Positions 17,905 to 23,082 of a stretch of DNA of 25,037 nt are shown here, one piece after another. Where the stretch lies: positions 1 through 25,037 of the IMG/VR virus record IMGVR_UViG_3300011116_000780; one strand, given 5' to 3'. Each line of letters begins with the position of its first letter. Position 1 is the first letter of the stretch. The translations under genes were made by a program, and so were the position numbers. The notes below the pieces were generated by a model that made no database searches, was not told the origin of the DNA, and was given only the letters and a program-made list of their open reading frames with translations. This stretch comes from a virus.

Positions 17905-18084
17905 ATGACCAGTTCCGTTCCCGTCGGTCAAACCGACACTGAAGATTATTTCAACATCAATAAGTTCGAAGAGCTTTTGAATCGTTTGGAGGCCTCTAAG
18001 GGTCGTCAAACCCGTCAAAAATCCCTGGAGAGCCGCCGTGACATCTTTGCTCAGGGCCTTGCTTCCATGATGAGCAATTTCTAA
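17905..18084 (+). CDS. Small tandemly duplicated protein, copy 1 (59 aa)
   Basis: The frame from the ATG at 17905 encodes MTSSVPVGQTDTEDYFNINK, then FEELLNRLEASKGRQTRQKS and LESRRDIFAQGLASMMSNF. A short N-terminal extended segment is followed by an amphipathic helix and a basic patch. The next gene encodes the same protein with two substitutions (T10S, D11G), and the gene after that shares the first ~20 residues. High expression or a copy-specific role in the virion could explain keeping both. No family is recognised. Confidence 0.8.
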   Translation: MTSSVPVGQTDTEDYFNINKFEELLNRLEASKGRQTRQKSLESRRDIFAQGLASMMSNF

Positions 18085-18090
18085 TTAGCC

Positions 18091-18270
18091 ATGACAAGTT
18101 CTGTTCCCGTCGGTCAGTCCGGCACTGAAGATTATTTCAACATCAATAAGTTTGAGGAGCTTCTGAATCGTTTGGAGGCTTCTAAGGGTCGTCAAACCCG
18201 TCAAAAATCCCTGGAGAGCCGTCGCGATATCTTTGCTCAGGGCCTCGCTTCGATGATGAGCAACTTCTGA
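18091..18270 (+). CDS. Small tandemly duplicated protein, copy 2 (59 aa)
   Basis: It encodes MTSSVPVGQSGTEDYFNINK followed by the same 39 residues as copy 1. By direct count, 16 of 180 nucleotides differ from copy 1; two change the protein, one changes the stop codon and the rest are silent. The duplication is therefore old enough to have accumulated silent changes and both copies are under selection. Only 6 nt separate the two genes. Confidence 0.8.
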   Translation: MTSSVPVGQSGTEDYFNINKFEELLNRLEASKGRQTRQKSLESRRDIFAQGLASMMSNF

Positions 18271-18295: not shown

Positions 18296-18544
18296 ATGAC
18301 CAGTAGTGTTCCCGCCGGACAAGTCGATGTCGAAGATTGGTTCGACCTAGACAAATACCGCCAGGCTGCTGGTGTAGCTTACGAATTTTCCAAGAAGAAA
18401 ATGGAGACTGCTGGTGAGCAAGAACGAGAAACTATCGGTAAAGGTGCCACAGAACAGCGCACTTCCTCCGAGCAGTCGCAGCAATTCAAAGAACGGGACG
18501 AAGCCAGGGACTACGGTCAGGCCCAACGAGCTTATCGATATTGA
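18296..18544 (+). CDS. Third paralogue sharing the N-terminal motif (82 aa)
   Basis: It reads MTSSVPAGQVDVEDWFDLDK, clearly related to the first 20 residues of the two preceding proteins, then diverges into a charged, Gln/Glu/Arg-rich helical region (METAGEQERETIGKGATEQR) ending AQRAYRY. The shared head could be a docking signal, for example to a capsid or tail component, on different bodies. Its stop overlaps the apparent beginning of the conserved part of the next gene. Confidence 0.75.
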   Translation: MTSSVPAGQVDVEDWFDLDKYRQAAGVAYEFSKKKMETAGEQERETIGKGATEQRTSSEQSQQFKERDEARDYGQAQRAYRY

Positions 18545-19553: not shown

Positions 19554-21080
19554 GTGCCCAGCTATACGCATCTTGCTTACCGTCGCAATGCAAAAGCAGC
19601 GGCACGTCGCCAGCAAATCCGTACACCACGCAATGCAGACGCCCTGGCATTAGCGCGGGAAGATTTTGCCTATTTTTGTGAGTACGTTGCAGATAAACCA
19701 CCGGCTACACATCACAAAGAATGGCATCGTCACTTTGTAACAAATGAAGACAGTAATTGTCTTATTAAGATTGCTGGCCCCAATATTGATCTTCTTGCTC
19801 CACGAGGTTCTGCTAAATCCACGGTTCTTGGTTTGCTTACCGCCTGGGCCATTGGCATTCATACTCAAGCCAAACTTCCCCTCCAAATTCTTTATTTGTC
19901 TTACACGGTTGATATTGCACGTTCTAAATCTGCAACGATTAAACGCATTATTGAAAGCAAGCGGTATCAAGAAGTTTTTCCCACTGTTCGCTTAATGAAA
20001 AACGTGACCAGTAATGAGTACTGGTCTATTGATCATAAGTTTGCTGGAATTGATACTACGGGTGATGAGCAATTCACCCTTTGTGCTGCGGGCCTTAAAG
20101 GCTCTGTGACTTCTAAGCGTTCTCACCTGGTCATGATTGATGACGCAATTAAATCTGCGGCAGACATTTCCAACCCTGACATCCGAAAACAGATGCAGGA
20201 AAACTGGAACGCGGTGATCGCTCCCACCATGTTCGAAGGCGCTCGCGCCATTTGCCTTGGTACGCGCTTCAGGCATGATGATATTCACGCTACGACATTC
20301 AATGAGCAAAACAATTGGATGCAGATTGTTCTTTCTGCTATCAATAATGATTCCAAGACAGGTGAAGAACAATCGTATTGGCCCGAGATGTGGTCATTGG
20401 AATATCTCAAAGAGAAAAAACGGCAAGCACCGATTGCTTTTTCGTTTCAGTACATGAACCAAATTGTTCGTCAAAACGAATTATCTTTGGCACCTGAGTT
20501 GATTGTTAAAGCTGAGATTTCAACGGAGTTTGACACGCTTGGCATTGGTGTTGACCTTTCCGCTGGCACCAAAGAAAAGAATGATTACACGGTCATGATC
20601 CTGGGCGGTCGCATCGGAGATCGTATTCACATTATTGATTACAGACGCATTCGTGTCATGGGTAACCTGGAAAAACTGGATGCTCTTAAAGAACTGCTTA
20701 ATGATTGGTCTGTAATTGGACGTGATGATAACGGTAATTATTTCCCCACTTATTCCACGTGCGACATTTGGTCAGAAGCTGTTCAATATCAGGCCTCTCT
20801 CGAAGCCGACTTCAAACGGGTCTGCCTCAATAACGAAGGTCTCTACAACTTGATTTGGCATCCAGTCAAAGGATTCCGTGCAGATAAGTTGGCACGTTTC
20901 CGAGGAATCATGGGCATGTTTGAAGACCGCAAAATTATTTTCAATCGGTTCCGTAACTTCACAAATCTCTTCGAGGAACTCACAAATTTCGGAGTAAGTG
21001 GTCATGATGACACGGTTGACGCGTTAGTATGGTTGGTGACGGGCCTTGCCCGCAAGGGTCAACTACATATTGATTATTGA
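19554..21080 (+). CDS. terL: Terminase large subunit (508 aa)
   Basis: This is the ATPase and nuclease that drives DNA into the capsid. Residue 83 onward has the Walker A-like PRGSAKST (83-90); the Walker B is HLVMIDD (191-197), and LGTR (235-238) is the coupling motif. The C-terminal RNase-H-like nuclease begins IGVDLS (331-336, Asp334) and ends HDDTVDALVW (484-493), giving the expected acidic residues. The length is usual for the family. The start is GTG with no ribosome site. The last 18 residues are encoded a second time after the HNH gene (21512-21565). The stop overlaps the HNH start as TGATG. Confidence 0.95.
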   Translation: MPSYTHLAYRRNAKAAARRQQIRTPRNADALALAREDFAYFCEYVADKPPATHHKEWHRHFVTNEDSNCLIKIAGPNIDLLAPRGSAKSTVLGLLTAWAIGIHTQAKLPLQILYLSYTVDIARSKSATIKRIIESKRYQEVFPTVRLMKNVTSNEYWSIDHKFAGIDTTGDEQFTLCAAGLKGSVTSKRSHLVMIDDAIKSAADISNPDIRKQMQENWNAVIAPTMFEGARAICLGTRFRHDDIHATTFNEQNNWMQIVLSAINNDSKTGEEQSYWPEMWSLEYLKEKKRQAPIAFSFQYMNQIVRQNELSLAPELIVKAEISTEFDTLGIGVDLSAGTKEKNDYTVMILGGRIGDRIHIIDYRRIRVMGNLEKLDALKELLNDWSVIGRDDNGNYFPTYSTCDIWSEAVQYQASLEADFKRVCLNNEGLYNLIWHPVKGFRADKLARFRGIMGMFEDRKIIFNRFRNFTNLFEELTNFGVSGHDDTVDALVWLVTGLARKGQLHIDY

Positions 21081-21508
21081 TGGAACGACTTAATCCGCAA
21101 ACAGGCAAACCCTGGAAATACGGGGAAACCGGACCCGACGGGAGAATTTTTTTAGCCTATAGACGAAAATCAAGAATTAATAAAGACGGGACATATCAGA
21201 TAAATTGGCTTAGCCCAGAAGCCTGGGCCAAAAGAGAAGCCAGTTGCCGAGAAGCGGCTAAGCGAGCACAAAGACGCAATGCCAAAATAATTAAAGAAGA
21301 AAAGTTAAAACGTGGTTGCGAAAAATGTGGATATGACGAGCACCATGCAGCCTTAGATTTTGATCATCTGGATCCGACAAAAAAACGCCGTGACATTGCC
21401 AAAATGCATACAACAAATGTTGCGTCATTAAAAGCGGAGATAGAAAAATGCCAAGTGTTGTGCGCAAATTGTCATCGGATAAAAACCTATGAACAACGTT
21501 TGTCTTGA
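21080..21508 (+). CDS. HNH endonuclease directly after terL (142 aa)
   Basis: From the ATG at 21080 it reads MERLNPQTGKPWKYGETGPD. Residues 1-50 form a small domain (R/L-NP-TG-K ... DGRIFLAYRRKS) common next to phage HNH domains. The HNH domain spans about 78-138: CEKC at 80-83, LDFDHLDP with the catalytic Asp95-His96, and CQVLCANCH at 124-132 providing zinc cysteines, Asn130 and His132. It is probably a DNA-nicking or homing enzyme. Some HNH proteins next to terL aid packaging (HK97 gp74), but the duplicated terL end downstream favours a mobile origin. AGA/AAA-rich codons differ from terL. Confidence 0.92.
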   Translation: MERLNPQTGKPWKYGETGPDGRIFLAYRRKSRINKDGTYQINWLSPEAWAKREASCREAAKRAQRRNAKIIKEEKLKRGCEKCGYDEHHAALDFDHLDPTKKRRDIAKMHTTNVASLKAEIEKCQVLCANCHRIKTYEQRLS

Positions 21509-21511
21509 ACC

Positions 21512-21568
21512 CTCGTTTGGCTTGTTACAGGTTTGGCGAGAAAAGGACAGCTACATATTGATTACTAA
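21512..21568 (+). pseudogene. Remnant copy of the terL 3' end
   Basis: In the same frame as the HNH gene, beginning 3 nt after its stop, the DNA encodes LVWLVTGLARKGQLHIDY and then TAA. This is identical to the last 18 residues of TerL. Of the 18 codons, 13 differ at the nucleotide level, all silently; only CTACATATTGATTA is shared as a longer run. It has no start codon of its own and is probably not translated. See the finding on the HNH insertion. Confidence 0.9.
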
Positions 21569-21576
21569 ATTTAGAA

Positions 21577-21891
21577 TTGAAAAAAAGCATTTTTGTCGTG
21601 GGGCCCGAATATCTTGCCATTGGCATTACGGCGGTCGTATCCGCTGTAACAGGTGGATCCTGGGTTGCCAACAAACTATTGGAAAGACAAAGAGAACGTC
21701 TTCAACAAGCCTTTGATTACACTGGTTCTCAAAAACGCAGGATTGACATTTTGGAAGATCAAATTAATCGCATGCCTTTGGACTACGTTCTAAAGGTTGA
21801 TTTTTTGCGCGAGATCCAGGAGATGCATAATAATTTTAGACAGATAAACGATAAGCTTGATAAGCTTATGGAAAAGCTTTTGTCAAAATGA
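21577..21891 (+). CDS. Single-span membrane protein with coiled coil (about 100 aa)
   Basis: With a TTG start at 21577 it reads MKKSIFVVGPEYLAIGITAV; a GTG at 21598 (MGPEYLAIG) is the alternative, and neither has a ribosome site. Residues about 12-32 are a membrane helix, followed by a basic stretch and a coiled coil (IDILEDQINRMPLDYVLKVD, MHNNFRQINDKLDKLMEKLL). One helix plus a coiled coil could be a holin-like, spanin-like or anchoring protein, but nothing decides this. The unclear start may result from the HNH event just upstream. The stop overlaps the next ATG. Confidence 0.65.
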   Translation: MKKSIFVVGPEYLAIGITAVVSAVTGGSWVANKLLERQRERLQQAFDYTGSQKRRIDILEDQINRMPLDYVLKVDFLREIQEMHNNFRQINDKLDKLMEKLLSK

Positions 21892-22093: not shown

Positions 22094-22795
22094 ATGTTTT
22101 ACGGCGGAGAAAGCAACGTCCCCGGCGCTCCCGGAAATTTACTCGCGGGTAGTCCCAGCTTTGATATTCGTCGCGGTGCAGGCGCTCTGGGTGGCCGCTC
22201 CGGTGAGCAGTTACGTCGCTTATATGAAGGCGGTACACAGCAAAATCAACAGCTCAATGAAGAGTTAATGAAGCGCGGCATCATGCCCGGTAGTGGCCCC
22301 CAGCTTCCAATGGCTTTTGGTTCCAGCAATCTCCCTGGTGCCGTAGGAAACATGGGTGGTCTTGCCAATGCTCAGTTCTTTGAAGGTCCTCAACTTGGAC
22401 AAGCTGCTCCGCAAGGCGAACCTCAACGCCCTTATGGCGGTGCGCCTAATGTTCCATTGACTCCTGAGGAAAAAGCTCGTTTATTACAGCAAGGTAGCCC
22501 GATTCCTCCGAACTTCCGCGAACAATATCTTCCCAAGGCAACTACTCCATTTGGAAGTCAAACAGAATCTTTAGTTGCTCAAGCCCCGGGCCGTTATCCC
22601 AGTGGTATGGAGGGTGCAGTGGACCTTACCTATCCTCCAGGACACCCTATGTACGGAAAACCTATCTTGCTTCCAGGTTCGCAAACCCCCTTGGATGCAA
22701 ACAAGGCCGAGTACGAAGGACTTAAGCGCATGCGCTCTGCTCCAATAGACCCGAGACTTACACCCCAAGGATTCCAAAATAAAATGGTTTACTAA
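22094..22795 (+). CDS. Gly/Pro-rich low-complexity late protein (233 aa)
   Basis: It reads MFYGGESNVPGAPGNLLAGS and is rich in Gly, Pro, Gln and Asn throughout (GTQQNQQLNEELMKRGIMPG, QAAPQGEPQRPYGGAPNVPL, LTYPPGHPMYGKPILLPGSQ). There is no catalytic motif, membrane helix or regular repeat. It is probably extended or disordered and could be a scaffold, linker or decoration protein. AGGG before the ATG is a weak ribosome site. The stop overlaps the next start (TAATG). Confidence 0.65.
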   Translation: MFYGGESNVPGAPGNLLAGSPSFDIRRGAGALGGRSGEQLRRLYEGGTQQNQQLNEELMKRGIMPGSGPQLPMAFGSSNLPGAVGNMGGLANAQFFEGPQLGQAAPQGEPQRPYGGAPNVPLTPEEKARLLQQGSPIPPNFREQYLPKATTPFGSQTESLVAQAPGRYPSGMEGAVDLTYPPGHPMYGKPILLPGSQTPLDANKAEYEGLKRMRSAPIDPRLTPQGFQNKMVY

Positions 22796-23082
22796 TGGCA
22801 CAAGAAGACGCCAAATATACAAAACCTGAGCTACGCGAACGCATCAAAGATCGCGTTATGGCTGGCAGCAAGGGTGGAAAGCCCGGCCAGTGGTCAGCAC
22901 GTAAGGCTCAGCTCCTTGCCCAGGAGTATGAAAAGGCTGGTGGCGGGTACCGTGGGGGAAAAGGGGAGAAGCAAAAATCCTTGGAGAAATGGGGAAAAGA
23001 AAAGTGGATGACTAAAGACGAATACGAAAAACGTTCTAAGGCAAAAGCTGCCGCTAAAAAATATAAGGACAGTAAAAATTAA
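22795..23082 (+). CDS. DUF5872-like protein, N-terminal half (95 aa)
   Basis: It reads MAQEDAKYTKPELRERIKDR, then VMAGSKGGKPGQWSARKAQL and LAQEYEKAGGGYRGGKGEKQ, KSLEKWGKEKW. The KPELRERIK..VMAGSKGGKPGQWSARKAQLLA.EYEKAGGGY block is the signature I know for DUF5872, a basic protein found in nucleocytoplasmic large DNA viruses and in some cyanophages, function unknown. Here only the first part is present; the matching second part follows as the next gene. It overlaps both neighbours by 1 nt. Confidence 0.75.
   Translation: MAQEDAKYTKPELRERIKDRVMAGSKGGKPGQWSARKAQLLAQEYEKAGGGYRGGKGEKQKSLEKWGKEKWMTKDEYEKRSKAKAAAKKYKDSKN

Follow-up and report, generated by a model that had tools for sequence, protein, structure and literature searches.

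A recoded terL end and an HNH gene as a probable homing cassette in phage genomes

In the viral DNA analysed here (the window: 25,037 nucleotides, positions 1 to 25,037 of the IMG/VR record IMGVR_UViG_3300011116_000780), a gene encoding an HNH endonuclease is flanked by two versions of the 3' end of terL, the gene for the large terminase subunit. It is very likely, in our judgement, that the HNH gene and the recoded terL end preceding it (~21012-21508) constitute a single mobile homing cassette of cyanophage-like viruses, and that this explains the arrangement as a whole. The features of the locus are the following:

19554..21080, + strand: terL (508 aa, large terminase subunit); native up to codon 486, with a replaced end
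21012..21080, + strand: copy 1, recoded terL 3' end, codons 487-508 and stop; left part of the cassette, imported
21024..21029, + strand: TTA-GTA, codons 491-492; silent footprint common to carriers and putative protected recognition/cleavage site
21080..21508, + strand: HNH endonuclease gene, 142 aa; its ATG at 21080 overlaps the terL stop and its TGA is at 21506-21508
21512..21568, + strand: copy 2, the displaced native terL 3' end, 18 codons and TAA; now outside terL
21598..21891, + strand: downstream membrane/Rz-like gene with a conserved GTG start; PHROG lipoprotein/Rz-like spanin matches

The window TerL matches Pfam PF17289 (E = 1.3e-9) and PHROG 38 (E = 6e-75), and shares 82% identity with its counterpart in Synechococcus phage S-EIV1. 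In copy 1, the left limit of which (21012) was taken from the pair of loci L043 and L055 compared below, the 18 codons shared with copy 2 span 21024-21077 and are followed by TGA at 21078-21080. After the HNH stop, the trinucleotide ACC (21509-21511) precedes copy 2, whose codons span 21512-21565 with the TAA stop at 21566-21568. Both copies encode LVWLVTGLARKGQLHIDY, 13 of the 18 codons as well as the stop differ, every change is silent, and an identical 14-nt stretch, CTACATATTGATTA, is found near the end. An earlier note on this DNA had described these two terL ends, with an identical 18-aa protein and 13 silent codon differences, on either side of an HNH gene, and we confirm this description; the location it gave for copy 1 is also correct, except that the first leucine codon starts 3 nt earlier, at 21024 instead of 21027. 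A TerL search across the window matched copy 2 (E = 1.8e-6) and, as the arrangement recurs in many other contigs, it does not arise by chance. In its own frame, copy 2 has no start-to-stop ORF beyond a few residues and the HNH stop lies just before it, which rules out that it is an expressed gene. The downstream gene, to which 104 aa had been assigned, more likely starts at GTG 21598, as conserved in relatives with an uninterrupted locus. Elsewhere in the window, positions 17905-18270 hold two nearly identical tandem 59-aa ORFs (MTSSVPVGQ...); a further, third related start is found at 18296.

Scanning IMG/VR with TerL gave more than 600 relatives, from which the best 80 were read. In ~75 of these 80 loci we found the empty site that the earlier note had predicted, with a single terL end joined to the next gene: a short A-rich spacer leads from the terL end to the membrane/Rz-like gene, which begins with GTGGG(A/C)CC and directly adjoins terL. 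Four of the best 80 (L003, L043, L056 and L063) carry the HNH gene together with a second terL end, and two others (L066 and L080) display copy-1-like codons without HNH. A second copy in relatives lacking the HNH gene, which would speak against homing, was looked for and seen in a single locus, L050. There, the HNH gene is reduced to its first 17 nt, which are followed by 11 nt and then by the second terL end; we read this locus as a deletion scar. The HNH gene thus combines sporadic occurrence, a fixed site and relatives with empty alleles, a criterion for homing endonuclease genes (HEGs).

The comparison of an occupied locus, L043, with an empty one, L055, is decisive as to which of the two copies is foreign. 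Over codons 1-400 of terL the two are 99.4% identical, over codons 401-486 they do not differ at all, and from there copy 1 of L043 is only 63% identical to the terL end of L055. After the HNH gene, L043 reads as the native end of L055, with 1 mismatch in copy 2, followed by nearly identical downstream DNA, for a net insertion of 489 nt. Since L055 carries the native end without any copy-1 bases, it cannot derive from L043 by loss, and the comparison implies that copy 1 and HNH entered together. In the window likewise, copy 2 and the DNA downstream read like the empty sites and copy 1 does not, and in nearly every carrier copy 2 is the closer of the two to empty-site sequences. On these alignments, the cassette that was imported consists of copy 1 and HNH, whereas copy 2 is the native end that it displaced. 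The earlier note had also considered the reverse, namely that copy 2 arrived with HNH and that copy 1 is the native end, because copy 2 and the HNH gene have some codon preferences in common. This is refuted by L055, which contains copy 2 and its flank and not copy 1, and by the empty-site relatives, and it now deserves almost no credence. The rest of that interpretation is borne out: the empty-site relatives support the joining of two diverged terL ends, one working and the other a remnant, as well as homing or recombination having brought HNH with the 3' end of one allele, and the proposal that the element re-makes the end of its target gene is also supported.

Movement of the cassette with its flanking DNA into otherwise unlike genomes, another HEG criterion, is seen not only in L043/L055 but also in two further pairs. 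The cassette stands out as a 98% identical island in phages that are about 80-85% identical around it. L120 and L132 are 98% identical across HNH and the ~100 nt adjoining it, against ~76-90% for terL upstream and ~70-83% downstream; L136/L137 display the same island pattern (97-98% versus roughly 70-90% for the surroundings). The window and L003 have identical HNH genes and copies 1, and the 5' halves of their terL genes are 73-90% identical. A tree test of HNH for transfer between two terL lineages gave p values of 0.05-0.23 after removal of a misleading long branch, and was significant only with that branch included. Within a given genome (L099 and L095 are examples), the protein encoded by copy 1 tracks that of copy 2, which free jumping does not predict, so that long residence in a lineage or conversion between the copies must be assumed. 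This tracking within lineages would fit another scenario, in which the terL end of the recipient itself was duplicated when HNH inserted illegitimately, and selection against self-cutting later recoded copy 1, with no import. In L120/L132, however, copy 1 and HNH move as one island, and copy 1 of L043 must have arrived already diverged, as it differs by 37% from copy 2 despite flanks almost identical to those of L055. We consider this scenario improbable, while local duplication may describe the first origin of the arrangement in a lineage.

A scan with the HNH protein identified 17 carriers. In all 17 the HNH gene directly follows terL, and in all 17 the second terL end lies at or just inside the HNH stop. 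A profile scan added carriers, and nearly all full-length relatives are likewise located directly after terL with a second copy. Altogether, carriers amount to ~43 distinct contigs, or 29 once terL genes >95% identical are removed, and copy 2 is kept at the site in 24 of these 29. The two copies of a carrier differ by 6-15 silent changes and 0-4 amino acids. The HNH frame of several carriers enters the native end and borrows its last codons and stop, and in L147-L152 copy 2 has decayed to CTTGATTACTAA-like remnants. An extra ORF of ~55 aa lies between HNH and copy 2 in L134 (3225-3440) and L135, and is possibly cargo of the cassette. A distant HNH gene (~40% identity) occupies a second terL site in L156 (1261-1957), located between codons 433 and 434; the architecture is the same there, and the second copy comprises 75 codons.

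Among carriers at the first site, codon 491 is TTA in 22/22 and codon 492 is GTA in 21/22 (ATA in 1/22), and all other silent positions over codons 455-508 are as varied as in empty-site loci. The TTA-GTA pair is found in 22 of the 29 carriers versus 2 of 59 non-carriers (Fisher p = 1e-12), both of these non-carriers being recoded loci that lack HNH. In a distant terL lineage, TTA-GTA is present in all or nearly all of 4 carriers and in 2/66 loci without HNH. Codons 491-492 are located where copy 2 begins. We propose that TTA-GTA at this junction is the expected mark of a protected cleavage site, which would be positioned at about codons 488-492, and we take the remaining silent differences between the copies to be ordinary divergence. 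Carriers without TTA-GTA often differ in their local amino acids (V-Y-T in L146, S-L-V-W-V-I in L147-L149), but L136-L140 do not. As copy 1 has ordinary CTC-GTC codons in L136-L140 and CTC/TTG-GTT in L147-L149, TTA-GTA is either not the sole solution or not always needed.

The HNH protein of the window matches PF01844 (E = 1e-4) and PHROG 3106 (E = 3e-30), and its AlphaFold model (pLDDT 93.5) adopts an HNH fold. The predicted fold resembles HNH nucleases (Z 5.2 with the Gme HNH nickase); Foldseek with this model returned weak HNH matches only, and no credible relative was found by sequence in the PDB. From Pfam, PHROGs and fold, the protein thus has the nuclease domain of a homing family that is among the criteria for a free-standing HEG. 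Its dN/dS is ~0.03-0.06 among carriers, where estimable. Such strong purifying selection would also be compatible with HNH assisting the terminase in packaging, as in HK97-type phages, and being kept beside terL for this function, with the duplicated end as an incidental feature; HNH genes do occur beside terminases, and one assists cos cleavage (PMC10448857). That HNH is present in so few of the best 80 of >600 TerL loci, and downstream of terL, as well as the empty sites, the scars and the signature of a mobile island, makes this partnership very improbable. For relatives of HNH in L128, L129 and L154 (KP34, EFA-2 and a T7-like contig), the gene begins within the 3'-terminal part of a DUF3310 gene, so that both use the same DNA in different frames; for the T7-like relatives, no duplicated gene end was seen in the few loci checked (L154).

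A DNA scan for the footprint retrieved 25 contigs, 11 of which lack HNH. In L113, the left part of an L056-type copy 1 is joined to the native end, and in L127 the copy 1 of L092 is found almost unchanged, followed by the native spacer. These junctions suggest that recombination between the two copies can delete HNH and leave a recoded, presumably resistant terL; such recoded-empty loci could also come from partial transfer without HNH. Together, empty, occupied, recoded-empty and scar loci suggest a cycle of gain and loss, resembling the one that Goddard and Burt (cited in PMC2248197) reportedly modelled for homing genes.

Within the homing cassette interpretation, the HNH enzyme would introduce a cut or nick into the native terL near codons 488-492, and the cassette would then be copied in during repair on the template of a carrier phage. 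The cassette replaces the last ~22 codons of terL with its own complete version, the HNH gene coming after that stop, and the native end is displaced downstream as copy 2, beginning at codon 488-491. Copy 1 would be spared from cutting by the silently recoded (or otherwise changed) codons 491-492, and copy 2 by the loss of the left half-site. Copy 2 would be retained because it serves as the right homology arm, and every homing event would renew it, which would account for its native-like sequence. Other types of element were examined and rejected. A group I intron or an intein is excluded by copy 1 being complete with its own stop and by copy 2 lying in another frame behind the HNH stop; an Rfam scan of the window retrieved only a tRNA, and no intron family or riboswitch. 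For a site-specific integrating element, there is no integrase, the cassette consisting of the HNH ORF only (plus the ~55-aa ORF in L134/L135), and the divergence of the two copies rules them out as att-site repeats.

Other parasites are present in these phages. The terL of S-EIV1 (L083:4001-6541; KJ410740 54080-56620) contains an intein (PF14890), another parasite of terL. In L043 (7338-8380), an Endonuclease VII gene (PF02945) is inserted in the homolog of a window gene (22795-23082, DUF5872-like) that is uninterrupted in the window; this homing-type cassette was noted at L043 and at loci L272-L310 and L313-L361, and its gap occurs in 49 contigs. The cassette provides a replacement 5' end and, after it, a gap in the coding sequence in which a take-off TCG, an immediate TAG, a 5-bp hairpin with a GNRA tetraloop (UAGCC-GNRA-GGCUA) and a landing TCG (TCT twice) succeed each other. 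The 19 distinct gaps measure 20, 21, 24, 25, 26 or 30 nt and fall in all three frames, hence skipping of the gap is required for the downstream frame to be restored. The parts flanking the gap are conserved (low dN/dS), and the gap persists where Endonuclease VII is truncated or absent. It displays the hallmarks listed for the bypassing of T4 gene 60 (PMC5009743), and from its sequence it looks like programmed ribosomal bypassing of the same kind.

In addition to introns and inteins, the terL cassette would give selfish nucleases a third way of occupying an essential phage gene harmlessly, namely by putting a recoded end in place of the original one. The loci offer natural snapshots (empty, occupied, recoded without nuclease, deletion scar), and with every stage represented, both the cycle of gain and loss by homing and the precise target bases become directly testable. 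Note that terL 3' ends, which are used in phage taxonomy, can be foreign. We give about even chances to a wider generalization: that phages harbor a class of elements that reside in essential coding sequence without splicing, by means of a cleavage-proof replacement end and a renewable native homology arm, and that coexist, in the same phage family, with the S-EIV1 intein and the bypass-like Endonuclease VII cassette as parasites of essential genes, each with a different immunity trick and cycling between empty, occupied and recoded-empty states.

The architecture itself is already known from fungal mitochondria, and no report of it in phages was found in the open-access literature, where we found no phage HEG with a duplicated gene end; the phage reviews PMC2988022 and PMC10448857 do not describe gene-end replacement. 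In fungi, mobile ORFs insert before the ends of atp6, atp9, cox2 and nad3 with a foreign C-terminus, leaving the native C-terminus downstream with mostly silent differences, as in atp6 of Allomyces macrogynus and in atp6, atp9, cox2 and nad3 of Glomus (PMC3630166, PMC4019555). The terL cassette likewise has an endonuclease ORF, an in-frame substitute end and a displaced native end matching uninserted relatives. It differs in its enzyme, HNH in phages versus LAGLIDADG or GIY-YIG in organelles, and in its target, an essential packaging gene, and only the terL cassette displays many independent loci, a shared two-codon footprint and recoded-empty states. Given its HNH enzyme, it works like the fungal elements but is not a member of their group by descent. 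With the free-standing phage HEGs such as T4 Seg/Mob (PMC2988022) it shares a sporadic gene beside or in an essential gene, flank co-conversion and the HNH domain, and HEGs are frequent beside terL (PMC10448857). Known HEG insertions within phage genes, however, split the gene, as mobE does in Aeh1 nrdA and mobA in the T4 topoisomerase (PMC2988022), whereas terL stays whole and has its end replaced. Finally, in T4 gene 60 the MobA cassette addresses both residence in an essential gene and self-cleavage by means of a 50-nt translational bypass (PMC5009743); the terL cassette would address the two by silent recoding.
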